This document shows, piece after piece, positions 10,343 through 19,851 of a DNA stretch of 64,000 nt. Positions within the stretch are counted from its first letter, which is position 1. Each line of letters begins with the position of its first letter. The notes under the pieces were generated by a model. The model saw only the letters and a list, made by a program, of their open reading frames with translations, was not told the DNA's origin and searched no databases. Location: NCBI RefSeq assembly GCF_030252345.1, contig NZ_CP126980.1, positions 124,001 through 188,000 of the forward strand, written 5' to 3'. The stretch comes from Actinoplanes oblitus (GTDB lineage: Bacteria > Actinomycetota > Actinomycetes > Mycobacteriales > Micromonosporaceae). A program made the position numbers and the translations under genes.

Positions 10343-12100
10343 TCACTCTTCCCAGTCGCGGTTGCCGCGCCGGTGCGGGTCCTGCCCGTACGGCCCGGGC
10401 TGTGCCTGGTTGCCGTAGTTGCCGCCGTGCTGGTCGTAGCCCGGCTGCTGGCCGTAGCCGGCCTGGTCGGGCTGGCCGTAGCCACCCTGCGCCTGGTCGT
10501 AGCCGGCCTGGTCGTAACCGCCGTGACCCTGGTCGTAGCCGGCGCCGTACCCGCCGGCGCCGCCGTAGGTGCCACCGTTGTCCGCCTGGTTGCCCCAGCC
10601 GGCCTGGTCGTCGTAGCCGCCACCGTAACCGTCGTTGTTCGGCTGGTAGAGGTTGGTGTGCTCGTCGTACCGCTGCGGCTGCTGCGGCTGCTCCGGCTGG
10701 TACATGCTGGTGTGCTCGTCGTAGCGCTGCTGGCCGTTGTCGTAACCGCCGGCCTGCGCGCCGTACTGACCGCCGTCGGCGTACTCACCGCCGCCGTAGC
10801 CACCCTGGTTGTCCCACTGGCTGCCGGCCGCGCCGCCGCCGCCGACGAAGCCACCGGCCGGCGGCATCGGAGCGCCGTACGGGTCGGGGAACTCGTCCTC
10901 GACCGGCGCCCGGTGGATCATCGTGGGGGCGTCGCCGATACCGCCCGCGCCCATCGCGGCGCCCATCCCGGGGCCGGCCACCATGGTGGCGTCGTTGCCG
11001 CGGGCGCCGACCGGCGCGGCCACCCGGGTGGCGTCAGCGGCGTACCGGCCGGGGCCGGCCGGACTGCCGATCGGGCCGCCGCCGAAGCCGTCCGCGTCGT
11101 CGTCGTTGTTGTTCTGCGCGCTCTTGCGGCGCAGCATGACCAGCACCATCGCGCCGATCCCGGCCGCCACCAGCAGGCCGCCGACGACCAGCAGCATCCA
11201 GGAGATGCCACCGTCCTCGGAGGCATTGGTGGTGTCCGCCGCGACAGTGTTCGCCGCGGTGGCCGCGTCGGTGGTCGGCTCGTCGTCCTCGGTGGCCTCG
11301 TCGGCAGGCGTCGCGCTGGCCGAGACGCTCGGCGAGGCGCTCGCCGAGGCGGACGCGGCGGCGGCCGGCTTGAGGGTGACGGTGGCGCTGACGCTCCGGT
11401 TGGCCCGGCCGTTGACAGTGGTCTTGCCGCCCTTGTAGCCGTCCAGGACGGCGCCGACGGTGATCGATCCCGGCGAGATCGGCTGCGCGTCGGACGAGGT
11501 GAAGGCGAACTGGCCGTCCCCGTCGGTGGTCGCCTGGTACGTGTGGCCCTGGCTGTCGGTCATCGCGACGCTGGCGCCGGCGAGCCGGGTGCCGTCGACG
11601 GCGCGGACCTTGCCGGAGACCTGCCGGACCGTCTTCGGCGCCTCGGGGCCCTTAGCGGTGATCTTCACCTTCCGCGTGGTGGGCGGGGAGCCGGCGACGG
11701 TGGCCGTCACCTGGAAGAAGAGATCCTGCGTCTGACCCTGGCCGACCTGCGGCAGCGCGATCTGCGCGTTGAAGGACTGCTTCTGCCCGACGGGGATGGT
11801 GGCGGTCTGGCTCCCGCAGCCGCTGTTGCACGCGCCGCCGGCGAGCTCGGCCACGATGCCGACGTTGGGATCGCCGCCGCCCTGCTCGCCACCGGTGCCC
11901 CCGCCGTCGCCCTGCGACCCGGGGTTACCAACCGTGTACGACACGGTTACAGTGGTGCCGGAGGCGCCGCTCAGCGACTCGGGCATCTGCACGGTGGGTG
12001 AGTCAGCCAGTGCAGCAGTCTGCACGCCGGCCACCAGGCCGACGACCAGCGCCAGGAACGCACCGGCCTGGATCGCCCGGCCTCGTAGGTGCGTTGTCAC
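10343..12100 (-). CDS. Secreted/membrane-anchored protein with CNA-B-like domain and low-complexity cytoplasmic tail
   Basis: This is a 585-residue protein from GTG 12100, with AAGG 8-9 bases upstream; GTG 12115 is an alternative. A signal sequence ends near ALADS (residue 32). The extracytoplasmic part has a beta-rich domain with a Cys pair (GACNSGCG) and a carboxypeptidase-regulatory/CNA-B-like domain starting VSGKVRAVDGTRLAGASV. A Ser/Ala/Asp-rich linker and one membrane helix (ISWMLLVVGGLLVAAGIGAM, about residues 297-322) follow. The tail of about 260 residues is rich in Gly, Tyr, Gln and Asp and holds repeated Thr motifs (DATMVAGP, APTMIHRAP, YDEHTSMYQP, YDEHTNLYQP). The function is unknown. 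The layout suggests an envelope protein with a phosphorylatable tail. Confidence 0.8.
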   Translation of the reverse strand: MTTHLRGRAIQAGAFLALVVGLVAGVQTAALADSPTVQMPESLSGASGTTVTVSYTVGNPGSQGDGGGTGGEQGGGDPNVGIVAELAGGACNSGCGSQTATIPVGQKQSFNAQIALPQVGQGQTQDLFFQVTATVAGSPPTTRKVKITAKGPEAPKTVRQVSGKVRAVDGTRLAGASVAMTDSQGHTYQATTDGDGQFAFTSSDAQPISPGSITVGAVLDGYKGGKTTVNGRANRSVSATVTLKPAAAASASASASPSVSASATPADEATEDDEPTTDAATAANTVAADTTNASEDGGISWMLLVVGGLLVAAGIGAMVLVMLRRKSAQNNNDDDADGFGGGPIGSPAGPGRYAADATRVAAPVGARGNDATMVAGPGMGAAMGAGGIGDAPTMIHRAPVEDEFPDPYGAPMPPAGGFVGGGGAAGSQWDNQGGYGGGEYADGGQYGAQAGGYDNGQQRYDEHTSMYQPEQPQQPQRYDEHTNLYQPNNDGYGGGYDDQAGWGNQADNGGTYGGAGGYGAGYDQGHGGYDQAGYDQAQGGYGQPDQAGYGQQPGYDQHGGNYGNQAQPGPYGQDPHRRGNRDWEE

Positions 12101-12262
12101 GTCCACCGCCTTCACCGCCTTCCGTGTCGCGCGGTCTCCGGCTTCCTGCCCGTCAGATCTCCCGCGACTCATACGCCGTCGGCAACTATGCCTTGTCGCA
12201 CGCCTTTTGCGCGACCCAGGGGCGTGTGCCGTTGTCGGCGAACCGCGTCGTATCGTCCCGAC

Positions 12263-12625
12263 ATGTCGCCTGCGCACAATAATTCCGAGTCGGTGGCCGC
12301 GGCGTTGGACGCGCTGGACCGGGGTGCGGAACCTGACCGCCCGGTCCTGCGTGACGCGGTCCGTGCCCTGCTGACCGAGTTGTCCCAGCGCGCGCCTGGC
12401 CGTTCGGTGGAGGTGCGAATTCCACCTTTCGGTGCGATTCAGTGCGTGCCCGGTCCGCGGCACACCCGCGGCACACCGCCCAATGTGGTGGAAACGGATC
12501 CGATGACGTGGCTGCTCGTGGCCACCGGCCGCCTCGGCTGGGCGGAGGCGGTCGGCGACGGCCGCCTGCGGGCCAGCGGGATCCGCACCGATCTCACCGA
12601 GTACCTGCCGCTGACCCCGGAATGA
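12263..12625 (+). CDS. Sterol-carrier-type (SCP_3-like) small protein
   Basis: This 120-residue protein has an alanine-rich N-terminal helix (SVAAALDALDRG) and a beta-rich body with VEVRIPPFGAIQCV, MTWLLVATGRLGWAEAVGDGRLRASGIRTDLTEYLPL. The body resembles the actinobacterial 'sterol carrier family protein' found next to purF. The ATG start gives MSPAHNNSES. It stops 121 bases before purF and is likely cotranscribed or neighbouring by conserved order. The ligand and role are unknown. Confidence 0.75.
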   Translation: MSPAHNNSESVAAALDALDRGAEPDRPVLRDAVRALLTELSQRAPGRSVEVRIPPFGAIQCVPGPRHTRGTPPNVVETDPMTWLLVATGRLGWAEAVGDGRLRASGIRTDLTEYLPLTPE

Positions 12626-12746
12626 GGCAGGGCCGGGCGGCTCCGGGCTCGCGTACACTGGGCGGTCGGAGCGAGCGGAGTTCGGGCAGACCAGCGGTGG
12701 TCGCGCTTCGAGCAGTTCGTGCGAACCGACATGAGGGAGCAAGCAG

Positions 12747-14354
12747 GTGCCCCGAGGCGACGGCCGATTGACCGACGATCTCGACCCCCAGGAGCGCGGC
12801 CCCCAGGATGCCTGTGGCGTCTTCGGCGTCTGGGCCCCCGAGGAAGAGGTCGCCAAACTCACGTACTTCGGGCTCTACGCACTGCAGCACCGGGGGCAGG
12901 AGGCCGCCGGCATCGCGGTGAGCGACGGCTCCGGTGTCGTGGTCTACAAGGACGTCGGCCTGGTCTCCCAGGTCTTCGACGAGCCGACGCTGGCCAGCCT
13001 GCGCGGCCACCTCGCGATCGGGCACGCGCGCTATTCGACCACCGGCGGGTCGAACTGGGAGAACGCGCAGCCCACCATCCGGGCCACCACGGCAGGCACC
13101 ACCATCGCGCTGGCCCACAACGGCAACCTGGTGAACACCGCCGAGCTGGCCAAGGAGGTCGCCGACCGCGGCCTCGAGGTGGGCGACGCCACCTCGGACA
13201 CCGCGCTGGTCACCACCCTGCTCGCCGGTCGTCCCGACATGTCGGTCGAGGCCGCGGCGCTGGAGGTGCTGCCCACCCTGCGTGGCGCGTTCAGCTTCGT
13301 CTTCATGGACGAGCACACCCTGTACGCCGCGCGTGACCCGCAGGGCGTGCGCCCGCTGGTGCTCGGTCGGATGGAGCGCGGCTGGGTGGTCGCCAGCGAG
13401 ACCGCCGCCCTGGACATCACCGGCGCCAGCTTCGTCCGCGAGGTCGAGCCCGGCGAGATCATCGCGATCGACGAGCACGGCCTGCGCTCCTCGCGGTTCG
13501 CCGCCCCGGAGCCCAAGGGCTGCCTCTTCGAATACGTGTACCTCGCCCGCCCGGACACCACCATCGCCGGTCGCAACATCTACGCCGCCCGCGTCGAGGT
13601 GGGCCGCAAGCTGGCCAAGGAGCACCCGGTCGAGGCCGACCTGGTGATCGGCGTCCCGGAGTCCGGCATCCCGGCCGCGATCGGGTACGCCGAGGCGTCC
13701 GGCATTCCGTACAGCGCCGGCTTCATGAAGAACGCGTATGTCGGCCGCACCTTCATCCAGCCCTCGCAGACCATCCGCCAGCTGGGCATCCGGCTCAAGC
13801 TGAACCCGCTGCGCGAGGTGGTCCGGGGCAAGCGGATCGTGGTGGTCGACGACTCCATCGTCCGGGGCAACACCCAGCGCGCCCAGATCCGGATGCTGCG
13901 CGAGGCGGGTGCCCTCGAGGTGCACGTGCGGATCTCCTCGCCGCCGGTGAAGTGGCCGTGTTTCTACGGCATCGACTTCGCCACCCGCGCCGAGCTGATC
14001 GCTAACGGTCTGGAGCTGGACGGCATCCGCCGCTCGATCGGCGCCGACAGCCTGGGTTACGTGTCGCTGGACAACCTGGTCCAGGCCACCGAGCAGCCGC
14101 GGACCCGGCTCTGCATGGCCTGCTTCGACGGGGAGTACCCGATCGAGCTGCCGGCCGCCGACCTGATCGGCAAGCACGTGCTGGAGGGCGTCGGCCGCCG
14201 GGCCGCGATGCCGGGAGCGTCGGAGGAGGCGGCCGAGGCGGCCGTCACCGACCTCGAGTCCGGTTACGAGGCCCGTGAGCACGGTGCCGACCACGCGGCA
14301 CCGTCGCCGCTGGTCGCCAGCCCGGGTGGCGCCTCCGCGCTGCACCATCCGTGA
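12747..14354 (+). CDS. purF: Amidophosphoribosyltransferase
   Basis: This 535-residue enzyme makes 5-phosphoribosylamine from PRPP and glutamine, the first step of purine synthesis. The catalytic N-terminal Cys of the Ntn glutaminase is Cys23 (DACGVFGVWAP), preceded by a 22-residue propeptide that must be removed. The phosphoribosyltransferase PRPP loop is VVVDDSIVRGNTQRAQ. Cysteines in GCLFEYVYLARP, KWPCFYGID and RLCMACFDGEYP fit the 4Fe-4S ligands of the Bacillus-type enzyme. The GTG start is preceded by GGGAG with 7-base spacing. Confidence 0.98.
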   Translation: MPRGDGRLTDDLDPQERGPQDACGVFGVWAPEEEVAKLTYFGLYALQHRGQEAAGIAVSDGSGVVVYKDVGLVSQVFDEPTLASLRGHLAIGHARYSTTGGSNWENAQPTIRATTAGTTIALAHNGNLVNTAELAKEVADRGLEVGDATSDTALVTTLLAGRPDMSVEAAALEVLPTLRGAFSFVFMDEHTLYAARDPQGVRPLVLGRMERGWVVASETAALDITGASFVREVEPGEIIAIDEHGLRSSRFAAPEPKGCLFEYVYLARPDTTIAGRNIYAARVEVGRKLAKEHPVEADLVIGVPESGIPAAIGYAEASGIPYSAGFMKNAYVGRTFIQPSQTIRQLGIRLKLNPLREVVRGKRIVVVDDSIVRGNTQRAQIRMLREAGALEVHVRISSPPVKWPCFYGIDFATRAELIANGLELDGIRRSIGADSLGYVSLDNLVQATEQPRTRLCMACFDGEYPIELPAADLIGKHVLEGVGRRAAMPGASEEAAEAAVTDLESGYEAREHGADHAAPSPLVASPGGASALHHP

Positions 14355-14391: not shown

Positions 14392-15540
14392 GTGACGCAC
14401 GTGTCCGAGCGCAGTGCCGGATCGAACGGCGCTGAGGGCGGCGACCGACAGCCGTGGACGGCAGGCGCCGGCCGCGGGCCGCGCAAGCGCTCCGCGACGT
14501 ACGCGGCCGCGGGTGTCTCGATCGACGCCGGCGATCGGGCTGTCGAGCTGCTCAAGTCCAAGGTGAAGAAGACCACCCGTCCCGAGGTGATGGGTGACCT
14601 GGGTGGCTTCTCCGGGCTGTTCCGGCTGAACACCGCGAAGTACAAGAGCCCGATCCTGGCCTCGTCCACCGACGGCGTCGGCACCAAGCTGGTCATCGCT
14701 CAGCAGCTCGACATCCACGACACGATCGGTATCGACCTGGTCGCCATGGTCGTCGACGACCTGGTGGCCTGCGGCGCCGAGCCGCTGTTCCTGCTCGACT
14801 ACATCGCCTGCGGCGAGGTCGTCCCGGACAAGATCGCCGAGATCGGCGCCGGCATCGCCGACGGCTGCCGCTACGCGGGGTGTGCCCTGCTCGGCGGCGA
14901 GACCGCCGAGCACCCGGGCGTGCTGCGCCCGGACGAGTACGACGTCTCCGCCACCGGTGTCGGCGTGGTCGAGGAGAGCGAGATCCTCGGCAAGGAGCGG
15001 GTCGAGCTGGGCGACGCGGTGATCGCCATGCGCTCCTCCGGCCTGCACTCGAACGGTTACTCGCTGGTCCGTCACGTCCTGCTGGGCGCCGGCCGGATGC
15101 GCCTGGACACCGTGGTCGACGACTTCGGCACCTCGCGCACCCTGGGCGAGGAGCTGCTGACCCCGACCAAGATCTACGCCAAGGACTGCCTGGGCCTGAT
15201 CGAGGAGACCGACGTCCGGGCGTTCTCGCACGTCACCGGCGGCGGCATCCCCGGCAACCTGAACCGCGTGCTGCCGGGCACCATGGACGCCGTGGTGGAC
15301 CGTTCCACCTGGCGCCCGCAGCCGATCTTCGACCTGATCCAGGCCAAGGGGCGGATCGAGGACTCGGAGATGGAGGCCACCTTCAACATGGGCGTCGGCA
15401 TGTTCGCGATCGTCTCGTCCGACGACGCCGACCGCGCGATGGCCTACCTGGCCGGCCGCGGGGTCGAGGCGTGGCAGGTCGGCGAGGTCATCGAGGGTGA
15501 CGGCCAGGTGCGGATGATGGGCTCCTACACCCGGGGCTGA
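14392..15540 (+). CDS. purM: Phosphoribosylformylglycinamidine cyclo-ligase (AIR synthetase)
   Basis: This 382-residue enzyme closes the imidazole ring, FGAM to AIR, using ATP. It has SYAAAGVSID-like (TYAAAGVSIDAGDRAVELLK), the FRLNTAKYKSPILASSTDGVGTK block and HVTGGGIPGNLNRVLP. GTG 14392 is preceded by AAGGGGAG four bases upstream, and the frame is open further up but without a start of this quality. An acidic/basic N-terminal extension of about 40 residues precedes the conserved core. It probably forms a unit with purF, 37 bases apart. Confidence 0.96.
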   Translation: MTHVSERSAGSNGAEGGDRQPWTAGAGRGPRKRSATYAAAGVSIDAGDRAVELLKSKVKKTTRPEVMGDLGGFSGLFRLNTAKYKSPILASSTDGVGTKLVIAQQLDIHDTIGIDLVAMVVDDLVACGAEPLFLLDYIACGEVVPDKIAEIGAGIADGCRYAGCALLGGETAEHPGVLRPDEYDVSATGVGVVEESEILGKERVELGDAVIAMRSSGLHSNGYSLVRHVLLGAGRMRLDTVVDDFGTSRTLGEELLTPTKIYAKDCLGLIEETDVRAFSHVTGGGIPGNLNRVLPGTMDAVVDRSTWRPQPIFDLIQAKGRIEDSEMEATFNMGVGMFAIVSSDDADRAMAYLAGRGVEAWQVGEVIEGDGQVRMMGSYTRG

Positions 15541-15600: not shown

Positions 15601-15635
15601 GATCCGTGTGTGCCGATGTCCGGCACATACGGATC
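15601..15635. terminator. Hairpin after purM
   Basis: GATCCGTGTGTGCCG and CGGCACATACGGATC form a 15-bp stem (one mismatch) around ATGTC, followed by TTT. It separates the purine genes from the RiPP locus. Confidence 0.8.
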
Positions 15636-15705
15636 TTTCGCATGAGTTCTGGACCGCGAGGCCTAGCCTGGCCCTGTGTCACGGGCGCCGGACGGGAGGT
15701 ACGCG

Positions 15706-16830
15706 ATGGCGGACGCGTGGAGCGGGATGAGTGGCATCTCCGCGGAACCCTCCTACGTGGTGATGCAGCCGACTACTCTGTGCAATCTGGCCTGCGGCTA
15801 CTGTTACCTGCCGTTCCGCCGGGAGAACTGGAAGATGCCGGTCGCCGTGGCCGAGGCGGTCGCCGCCGAGGTCGCCGGTTTCGCCGGGTCGGGCCGGTTC
15901 TCCGTGGTCTGGCACGGCGGTGAGCCGCTCGCGGCCGGCCCGGACCACCTGGCCGCGCTCGTCGCGCCGTTCGGCGCGGGTGTGGAGCATCACGTGCAGA
16001 CCAACGCGACGCTGATCGACGACGCCTGGTGCGAGTTCTTCATCGCCCACGACGTCCGGGTCAGCGTGAGCGTGGACGGTCCCCGGGAGCGCAACGGCGA
16101 CCGGGTCGATCGGGGCGGCAAGCCGGCCTACGACCTGATCACCAAGGGGATCGAAGCGCTTCAGCGGCACGGCATCCCGTTCTCCGCCCTCTGCGTGGTC
16201 TCCGAGCCGCGTCCCGGTGTGGCCACCGAGCTCTACGACTACTTCCTCGGCCTGGGCTGCGAGGTGCTCGGCATCAACGTGGAGGAGCAGGAGGGGGTCA
16301 ACCTCCGGCTGAACCGCCATGACCCGGCCGCGGTGACCGCGTTCTGGGCCGAGCTGGTCGGTGCCTGGCGCGCGGCGCCACGGATCCACCTGCGTGAGGT
16401 GGAGTGGTCACTGCGATACGCCGCGGCGGTCCTCGACGGCACCGCCGACGGGCTGTTGCCCCGGCAGCTGGATCCGATTCCCACGGTGGCCCACGACGGC
16501 TCGGTGGTGCTGCTCTCGCCCGAGCTGGCCGGCTTCCACGATCCCCGGTACGGCGACTTCACCAGCGGCAACGTGCTCACCACCCCGCTGCGCCGGATCC
16601 TCGCGGAGGCGGCGGCGACGCCGTGGATCGGCGAGTTCCTGGAGGGGGTCGAGGGGTGCCGGCGCAGTTGCCCGTACTTCGGCTTCTGTGGCGGCGCCCA
16701 CGCGGCCAACCGCTACTTCGAACACGGCAGGTTCGACGTCACCGAGACGAACCACTGCCGGAACAGCAAGATTCGCCTACTGGAGGGAGTGCTGGATCAT
16801 GCCCGAGATCATCAGGCCACTGCTGTCTGA
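15706..16830 (+). CDS. Radical SAM/SPASM-type peptide maturase, cyclophane-forming type
   Basis: This 374-residue protein has the radical SAM cluster motif CNLACGYCYLP, a VVWHGGEPLAAGP block and HVQTNATLIDDAWC, as in anaerobic sulfatase-maturase/RiPP maturase proteins. A C-terminal Cys-rich stretch (GCRRSCPYFGFCGGAHAANR, then TNHC) fits auxiliary Fe-S binding of a SPASM-like domain. ATG 15706 is chosen because GGGAGG lies six bases upstream. A TAGCCT at 15664 may be the -10. The downstream overlapping gene encodes a small peptide ending in aromatic-x-N motifs, so the likely job is to crosslink aromatic side chains. It resembles AmcB-type actinobacterial cyclophane maturases, an assignment made from memory of motifs and not searched. 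Confidence 0.88.
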   Translation: MADAWSGMSGISAEPSYVVMQPTTLCNLACGYCYLPFRRENWKMPVAVAEAVAAEVAGFAGSGRFSVVWHGGEPLAAGPDHLAALVAPFGAGVEHHVQTNATLIDDAWCEFFIAHDVRVSVSVDGPRERNGDRVDRGGKPAYDLITKGIEALQRHGIPFSALCVVSEPRPGVATELYDYFLGLGCEVLGINVEEQEGVNLRLNRHDPAAVTAFWAELVGAWRAAPRIHLREVEWSLRYAAAVLDGTADGLLPRQLDPIPTVAHDGSVVLLSPELAGFHDPRYGDFTSGNVLTTPLRRILAEAAATPWIGEFLEGVEGCRRSCPYFGFCGGAHAANRYFEHGRFDVTETNHCRNSKIRLLEGVLDHARDHQATAV

Positions 16831-17026
16831 CGGCGTGGAGACGGATCCGGTGACGGCACGGGTGCACGACACCCGGGACGGTCTGGCCGCGCTCATCGAG
16901 GAGGCGGAGACGGCTCGCCGGCAGCGTGCCGAGGAGGCGGTGCCGGGCAGCGGCTCGGCGGTGTGCGCGTGGAACCACTTCGAGAACATTCCCACGTTCT
17001 ACAACTGGAACAACCGGCCGCGGTGA
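16799..17026 (+). CDS. RiPP precursor with C-terminal aromatic-x-x core (AmcA-like)
   Basis: This 75-residue peptide overlaps the maturase gene by 32 bases and has its own strong ribosome site, GGAGGGAG, 9 bases before ATG. Residues 1-50 form a charged, helix-prone leader (LAALIEEAETARRQRAEEAV). A Gly/Ser linker follows, then the core with WNH (58-60), FEN (61-63), FYN (67-69) and WNN (70-72), ending RPR. Three-residue cyclophane enzymes link an aromatic residue to the beta carbon of the residue two places on, often Asn, so up to four rings are possible. Cys56 just before the core is unexplained. No protease or exporter lies beside it. Confidence 0.85.
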   Translation: MPEIIRPLLSDGVETDPVTARVHDTRDGLAALIEEAETARRQRAEEAVPGSGSAVCAWNHFENIPTFYNWNNRPR

Positions 17027-17371: not shown

Positions 17372-17587
17372 TCAAAGCCGCCTTGGAGGCGACCAGGAAT
17401 CCTGGTCGTCGTCAGCGTCATCCTCGTCATCGTCGACGAACTCTTCGTTGTCGTCGTCGAAATGACGGTCGGACTGGCGTGTCCCAGCCAGTTCGCGCTG
17501 CAAGGCGGTGAGGTCGGTGTTCGGGGAGTGATACTTCAACTCCCTTGCCACCTTCGTCTGCTTGGCCTTAGCACGGCCGCGCCCCAT
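17372..17587 (-). CDS. DUF3073 domain-containing protein
   Basis: This 71-residue protein starts MGRGRAKAKQTKVARELKYHS, the hallmark of the actinobacterial DUF3073 family. A strongly basic N-terminus is joined to a very acidic C-terminus (DDDNEEF, DDDEDDADDDQD). Its function is unknown, and the charge split suggests nucleic-acid or protein binding. The frame is open for another 21 codons upstream, but the family starts at MGRGRAKAKQ. The family is commonly found close to purM. Confidence 0.9.
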   Translation of the reverse strand: MGRGRAKAKQTKVARELKYHSPNTDLTALQRELAGTRQSDRHFDDDNEEFVDDDEDDADDDQDSWSPPRRL

Positions 17588-19011: not shown

Positions 19012-19851
19012 GTGCCGTCTCTGTTCGCGTCGTACCTACGGGTTTACGAGCCGCTGACCGCCTTCGACCGGGAGCGGCAGGTTTTCTGGCGCCGTTATGC
19101 CAAGGAGGGTCGCGACCTCGGGCCGGTCGAGGGCCCGGTCCGGCAGCGCACCGCCGTGCTGGAGGCGCTCGGCGCCGGCTGGACCCGGCTGCCCGACCTG
19201 CCCGATGAGGCGTACGTGCTGGAGTGGGAGAACGCGCTGCTGGTCTGCCCGTGGAACCTGCGCCTGCGAGTCGCCGAGGCGGCGCTGAACGCCCGGGACG
19301 GCGTGCCGGCGGTGCTCGCCGACGCCTTCGTCCCGCCGGTGCTGGCCGGTCAGGCCAAGGCCGTGGTCGAGGACTGGCGCAGCGGTGCCCGGGTGCTGGA
19401 GCAGGGGGTGCCCCGGGTGCACGAGCAGATCGCCACCTGGGGCGTGCCGCTGCGCTGGTTCGCCTTCGTGGACCTGGACGAGCGGGAGATCTCGCTGACC
19501 GCCCGCCGGCGCACCCTGCGCTACCGCACCGAGATCTCCAAGGCACGCCGGCGGGCGCACCGGGCGGTCTCGGTGCTGCGCAAGTCGCTGGGCGACGCGC
19601 CGATCACCGAGGCGGTCGAAGAAGGCACCCGGTGGTTGGAGGAGTTCCATCCCCGCTCGGTCGTCGAGCTCGACTACGGCGGCCTGGTCAACCTCCTTCC
19701 GGAGGACAAACTCCGGGAGGACGATTCACCCGGGTTGGTGGCCGCCGGGCTGTCGGCACTGTCCCGGGGTGACGCCGACGCGGCCAGTGAGGCGTACGAG
19801 AAGTTGGTCGCTAGATGGCGAGTTGTCCAACTTCTGGAGCGGTCCAACTGA
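19012..19851 (+). CDS. Conserved actinobacterial protein of unknown function
   Basis: This 279-residue soluble protein has no signal peptide or membrane helix. It starts MPSLFASYLRVYEPLTAFDRERQVFWRRYA and has a basic central stretch (TARRRTLRYRTEISKARRRAHRAVSVL). I do not recognise a catalytic motif. GTG 19012 has AAGGA seven bases upstream. It lies upstream of bldC in the same direction, a neighbourhood I recall for this protein in related actinomycetes, but no function is inferred. Confidence 0.75.
   Translation: MPSLFASYLRVYEPLTAFDRERQVFWRRYAKEGRDLGPVEGPVRQRTAVLEALGAGWTRLPDLPDEAYVLEWENALLVCPWNLRLRVAEAALNARDGVPAVLADAFVPPVLAGQAKAVVEDWRSGARVLEQGVPRVHEQIATWGVPLRWFAFVDLDEREISLTARRRTLRYRTEISKARRRAHRAVSVLRKSLGDAPITEAVEEGTRWLEEFHPRSVVELDYGGLVNLLPEDKLREDDSPGLVAAGLSALSRGDADAASEAYEKLVARWRVVQLLERSN

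Follow-up and report, generated by a model that had tools for sequence, protein, structure and literature searches.

The amcB and amcA genes

The locus occupies positions 15706..17026 of the window, by which we mean the whole stretch of 64,000 nucleotides analysed (C1:124001-188000 of the 9.81-Mb single-contig genome of Actinoplanes oblitus), and it comprises two genes on the forward strand. The first of them, amcB (15706..16830, with its ATG at 15706 and its stop codon ending at 16830), encodes a radical SAM/SPASM-type peptide maturase of 374 residues, and the second, amcA (16799..17026, from the ATG at 16799 to the end of the stop codon at 17026), a precursor peptide of 75 residues. The two frames overlap by 32 nt, and the same 32-nt overlap is found in 73 of 81 loci, a set made up of this locus and 80 named ones (the best 80 of 180 related stretches, with a bias towards close relatives). 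Purine-rich stretches resembling ribosome-binding sites were recognized by eye ahead of both starts. The coordinates that the original prediction had given for this two-gene locus and its overlapping 75-residue peptide are correct, and the features it had read there are all present, namely the CNLACGYCYLP motif and the C-terminal cysteine cluster of the maturase, and the peptide end WNHFENIPTFYNWNNRPR with its WNH, FEN, FYN and WNN units.

Both proteins exceed the curated cut-offs of NCBIfam models, AmcB with NF041718 (514.3 bits, cut-off 425, E 1.7e-154, profile positions 1-361 of 362) and AmcA with NF041722, the AmcA_3a model (111.2 bits, cut-off 65, E 2.8e-32, profile positions 1-58 of 58). 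The likeness to AmcA/AmcB pairs, which had been proposed from the motif, is upheld in this way for enzyme and peptide alike, and the comparison of the precursor with AmcA families, put forward at that time as a check, assigns it to AmcA_3a. The AmcA_3b model gave 37.4 bits, under its cut-off of 65, and the second-best NCBIfam model for AmcB, GrrM/OscB (TIGR04261), gave 228.2 bits, below its cut-off of 310. Radical_SAM was the sole Pfam family above cut-off in AmcB; the precursor had no match in the copy of Pfam used, and a precomputed PF28164 assignment is present in the table of its homologues. The enzyme carries a CX3CX2C motif at residues 26, 30 and 33 and, as expected for a SPASM-type protein, C-terminal cysteines at 318, 322, 328 and 351, all of which are kept in every one of 141 aligned rows that has a residue there (139 rows for C26, C30 and C33, 141 for C318, C322 and C328 and 140 for C351, within a range of 138-141).

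Among named organisms, the closest relatives of the enzyme are found in Actinoplanes (up to 90% identity), and close Actinoplanes relatives bear the NCBI name 'multiple cyclophane-containing RiPP AmcA'. A homologue search with the precursor returned 1081 of 1082 candidate proteins at E 0.01 or better, of which the best 120 were listed. By the tests available to sequence analysis, the locus is thus a member of the AmcA/AmcB kind, already catalogued among the three-residue-cyclophane RiPPs or triceptides, and very likely works as a triceptide locus does. The family model has one match above cut-off in the genome. Two more radical SAM genes of the same genome match it weakly, at 80 bits each (C1:5690762-5691223 in an 876-aa frame and C1:583897-584412 in a 470-aa frame). 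A chance open reading frame was ruled out by the NCBIfam E-values, together with a core that is fixed at the protein level over many DNA versions.

Two elements were noted in the gap between purM and amcB. A 15-bp inverted repeat followed by TTT (15601..15635, forward strand) is matched by a related hairpin in 31 of the 81 loci, among which the stem changes are paired, and may represent a terminator of purM or an operator. Closer to the gene, 37 nt 5' of the amcB ATG, the hexamer TAGCCT (15664..15669, forward strand) sits inside the most conserved block of the gap (21 aligned loci) and is a candidate -10 element; a sigma-70 consensus scan found no promoter and did not pick it up. A structured RNA at the locus was ruled out, there being no Rfam match at E 0.1.

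Chromosomal place, frozen core and the second AmcB type

The pair is flanked on the left by purM (14395..15540, forward strand, true start uncertain) and on the right by a convergent DUF3073 gene (17372..17587, reverse strand; PF11273, 89.6 bits). In 80 of the 80 named loci, which represent 14 named genera and one unclassified strain, a purM orthologue precedes amcB and a DUF3073 gene follows amcA, in the order PurM(+), AmcB(+), AmcA(+), DUF3073(-), with a dehydrogenase in 79 and a BldC-like gene in 78 of them, the misses being at least partly due to contig ends. The aromatic-rich peptide itself accompanies the maturase in all 80, in agreement with the expectation of the original prediction that homologues of the enzyme would not lack one. 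The neighbours that we take to be PurL, PurF, PurM and BldC were named from their sequences, a family match (HTH_17/MerR) backing the BldC-like one alone. Six neighbour proteins were scanned with Pfam, giving SCP_3, DUF3073, a Glu/Leu/Phe/Val dehydrogenase, HTH_17/MerR and a carboxypeptidase-regulatory-like domain, and no match for the protein at 19012-19848. The last of these domains belongs to an 839-aa frame in the purL/purF gap (10343-12862 of the window, reverse strand) with an end rich in Gly, Gln and Tyr.

Distances between AmcB sequences track those between PurM sequences (r 0.875 over 79 loci, a value as high being reached in 0 of 2000 permutations), at the level given by AmcB against the dehydrogenase (0.873) and by PurM against the dehydrogenase (0.837). 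Inheritance of the pair therefore looks vertical. Recent spread by transfer was ruled out by this correlation and by the fixed gene order.

The C-terminal part of the precursor, AVCAWNHFENIPTFYNWNNRPR (residues 54-75; 16958..17023, forward strand), is the same in all 22 residues in 81 of the 81 loci, in which it is encoded by 68 DNA versions. Of the 22 codons, 17 or 18 vary synonymously, the figure changing with the inclusion of single-copy variants. The unvaried codons are those of the two Trp residues, for which there is no synonym, and of N63, N69 and N71, which are always AAC; the codon of Y68 varies in one locus. A single precursor of the 81 extends one residue past the core. The exact 17-residue core, searched as a back-translated pattern, was found in 228 of 300 genomes of the family (taken, from the named relatives of the enzyme, to be the Micromonosporaceae), belonging to 19 of 44 genera and including 67 of 67 genomes of the genus itself, and the reversed pattern used as a control gave 0 among the matches listed. 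Likewise, the exact core ends 118 of the 120 best-listed homologues, a count biased by being made on top hits, the two departures being P0004 (HLEN) and P0097 (CGW). A core computed to be frozen to this extent indicates that the product is kept nearly constant by selection. No report of the fixed chromosomal place and frozen core, both of them properties of this clade, was found in the open-licence literature. A literature match to 'AmcB' proved to concern amycomicin, which is unrelated.

On the other hand, the family holds a second type of AmcB. The enzyme was found above cut-off in 258 of the 300 family genomes, including some that have this other type only (G041, for example), and 42 have none above cut-off. 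The other-type copies are about 40-44% identical to the AmcB studied here, lie away from purM, and have precursors with FDN/WDN units, although no FDN/WDN core was found in the stretch read for 6 of 24 such rows. In a tree of 65 AmcB rows, the enzymes of the purM locus form one group (41 rows, support 97/95) against the 24 others; labels were set by flanks or by score, and those of L107, L110 and L113 without a flank check. Outside the family AmcB is rare, accounting for 2 of the 48 genomes that pass the cut-off in an order sample (n=298) and for 2 of the 5 that pass it in a class sample (n=197); at the order-level loci L117 and L118 no precursor was found in the stretch read, the contig of L118 having only 388 bases downstream. 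In one other-type gene (L096:1507-2343, in G316), the C-terminal half of AmcB is continuous with an FDN/WDN core and a TAG stands upstream in the gene, which may be broken or misassembled. Within the family, 16 of the AmcB-negative genomes have a recognizable PurM, and neither AmcB nor AmcA was found in its flanks, which were covered for about 1.5 kb downstream (for L153, about 0.4 kb); DUF3073 lies within reach in two of them. These lineages can therefore do without the locus, and its role is not an essential one.

These data bear on what the product is for, a fate that the original prediction had called unknown, having seen neither the fixed position nor the frozen core. Radical SAM cyclophane peptides are usually mined as antibiotics, and cross-linked peptides of this origin are usually filed among the secondary metabolites. 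An ordinary, if conserved, antimicrobial or competition peptide, served by genes elsewhere for its export, cleavage and self-protection, would have precedents, since the triceptides and related radical SAM cyclophane peptides discussed in PMC11002830 include the antibiotics dynobactin and darobactin. We nevertheless hold this explanation to be unlikely: the core is not diversifying, being identical in 81 of 81 loci when FDN/WDN cores comprise 15 distinct sequences among 18; the position is fixed and vertically inherited; and, as had already been remarked, no linked exporter, protease or immunity gene of the sort expected in an antimicrobial RiPP cluster was recognized by Pfam among the six neighbour proteins. 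Frozen sequence by itself does not prove a non-antimicrobial role. Together, however, the near-unchanging core and the setting among housekeeping genes suggest an everyday task rather than a weapon.

Precursor anatomy and the ranking of the putative rings

Upstream of the core, the leader (residues 1-53; 16799..16957, forward strand) drifts, with a mean top-residue frequency of 0.67 over residues 1-52 and 9 invariant positions of 52 in the 81 loci, against 1.00 in the core. A helix-like patch is conserved within it, G28-L29-x-A31-L32-x-x-E35-A36-E37-x-A39-R40-x-x-R43-x-E45, and is likely to be an enzyme-binding site. The core carries four aromatic-x-x units on the forward strand, WNH (W58-N59-H60; 16970..16978), FEN (F61-E62-N63; 16979..16987), FYN (F67-Y68-N69; 16997..17005) and, immediately after it, WNN (W70-N71-N72; 17006..17014), which would correspond to putative rings A, B, C and D.

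A deeper set of loci helps to rank these units. Of 26 genomes, a part of those with AmcB and without the exact core, 24 gave matches, amounting to 28 loci with 22 readable precursors in the same neighbourhood, whose flanks were seen on both sides in 13, on the purM side alone in 1 and on the DUF3073/dehydrogenase side alone in 8, no PurM being found in the upstream stretch covered for these 8. The deep cores differ at many positions, with loss of the Cys and of WNH, and read CAWNHFENIPTFFNWNNRPR in 8 loci, WRPFEDAFPTFYQFTN[R/K]P.R in 4, GPRPFEDAFPTFYQFSN[R/S]PQ in 4, PRWTDVFTTQFTEFSNRPR in 3, and GWRAFEDSFPTFYEFTNRPR, GWRAFSDAFPTFWEFSNRPR and CESTGTYYNWNNRSR in one locus each. All 22 keep [FYW]-x-[NQE]-[FW]-x-N, in a pattern that, like the one used to count the FDN/WDN cores and the exact ends of the best-listed homologues, was composed after the peptides had been read and is descriptive rather than a test. 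In the branch with an FFN core (L126-L129, L145, L146), no PurM was found within about 0.8-1.5 kb upstream, and DUF3073 and the dehydrogenase follow; an insertion may separate purM from amcB there. The pair at L130-L133 is flanked by PurM and the BldC-like gene, with neither DUF3073 nor the dehydrogenase found in the stretch covered.

The survival of the motifs in these branches supports the back-to-back FYN and WNN rings best, FEN next and WNH least. At the FYN position the first residue is aromatic in 22 of 22 deep precursors, as FFN, FYQ, FYE, FWE, FTE or YYN, so that the third residue is N, Q or E and the middle aromatic, Tyr, is dispensable. At the WNN position WNN, FTN or FSN is found, [WF]-x-N being kept in 22 of 22. 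The FEN position reads FEN, FED, FSD or WTD in 21 of 22, the exception being L142. WNH, although unvarying throughout the 81 loci and the FFN branch, becomes WRP, WRA or PRP or is absent in deeper branches, in some of which the unit survives only as its W. With four conserved units of the aromatic-x-[N/D or other] kind here and two to three in deep branches, the original proposal of up to four rings stands as an upper limit, WNH being replaced or lost in the deeper branches.

The exception just named, L142 (1444-2730, in G033), lies in the same neighbourhood and holds amcB and amcA fused in a single frame of 429 codons, which runs with no stop through a leader-like stretch into TYYNWNNRSR, just the last two aromatic-x-x units remaining. 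Such a fusion pairs the substrate with its enzyme. A search with its tail for further fusions returned a single NCBI protein, which is encoded in a Dactylosporangium MAG, has a 100% identical tail and is apparently the same gene. The presence of enzyme and core on one chain, the invariance of Cys56 and His60 in 81 of 81 loci and the failure to recognize a protease or exporter among the neighbours scanned would all fit an AmcA that stays uncut and acts in the cell as a full-length stapled protein, with a small regulatory or a metal-binding task, for example. The leader, on the contrary, drifts as leaders do beside its frozen core and the Cys is lost in deep branches, and we regard an uncut product as improbable.

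Proposed product and comparison with known systems

In the mechanism that we propose, AmcB would bind the leader of AmcA, the cluster held by Cys26, Cys30 and Cys33 would drive the radical SAM chemistry, and an auxiliary cluster would sit at Cys318, Cys322, Cys328 and Cys351. In each aromatic-x-x unit handled, the aromatic side chain would be joined to the beta carbon at position i+2, with loss of 2 H per ring. Rings would be likely at the adjacent FYN and WNN units, next at FEN and possibly at WNH, and would make the last 20 or so residues rigid. Produced from single-copy genes that are inherited vertically at a fixed place of the core chromosome, the product would serve the producing cell itself in a conserved capacity. 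We consider it probable that AmcB makes, by cyclophane chemistry, a stapled peptide with a conserved cell function as a signal, morphogen or cofactor-like molecule, and not a diversifying antimicrobial; the role is here inferred from evolution. A normal cellular role is what one fixed place and a product hardly changing over 14 named genera indicate, and the comparison of frozen with variable AmcA cores predicts which rings matter. The fuller view, of a housekeeping triceptide of the Micromonosporaceae, single-copy, vertical and frozen, which next to the purine genes would act family-wide as a signal, morphogen or cofactor and would descend from the diversifying type still present elsewhere in the same genomes, is more tentative and in our estimate falls somewhat short of an even chance.

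A further explanation would be a redox cofactor precursor of the mycofactocin type, with an invariant C-terminus that a radical SAM enzyme modifies and partner enzymes use. The signature described in PMC3023750, which led Haft to propose mycofactocin, is also that of amcAB: as for mycofactocin and PQQ, a short precursor with a near-invariant C-terminal part, fixed in the protein and not in the DNA, goes with a SPASM-type radical SAM enzyme and is near-universal in its clade. The amcAB locus differs in having two genes, with no linked tailoring or redox partner genes among the scanned neighbours or in the conserved gene order, and an enzyme of a different subfamily; moreover, conservation extends over all 22 residues instead of a few terminal ones, and the aromatic-x-x units are spaced as in cyclophane substrates. 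A cofactor in the strict sense is accordingly given a low probability, below that of the antimicrobial. The mycofactocin-type signature, taken together with the conserved RiPPs SapB and AmfS reported to act in the development of Streptomyces, favours with moderate confidence a physiological product over a weapon.

Among enzymes of solved structure, the top match of AmcB in both sequence and fold is ChlB (PDB 9gm3, 9gmc), called a multiple cyclophane synthase in the title of its paper. In the sequence search of solved chains it ranks first (E 1.1e-18), and ChlB bound to the leader of its precursor is the best fold match (TM 0.72-0.74) of an AF2 model of AmcB obtained from a 36-row alignment (pLDDT 80.6, pTM 0.83). 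The two differ in that identity is 22-23% and that the ChlB system has, as far as its paper describes it, a linked or fused hydroxylase domain, absent at the amcAB locus. The triceptide enzymes XncB, OscB, MscB, YxdB, HaaB and YhhB, as presented in PMC11002830, likewise combine aromatic-x-x substrates with a SPASM-type radical SAM enzyme; here, the bond is a prediction, the GrrM/OscB cut-off is missed and the third residues of the clade include His, Gln and Glu. The FDN/WDN-type AmcA loci of the same bacterial families also join AmcB relatives to adjacent precursors, and differ in not lying beside purM and in having cores of repeated, variable FDN/WDN units. With AmcA/AmcB as catalogued (rSAM_phane_AMC and phane_AmcA_3a), both of whose cut-offs are passed, the member described here is itself no different.
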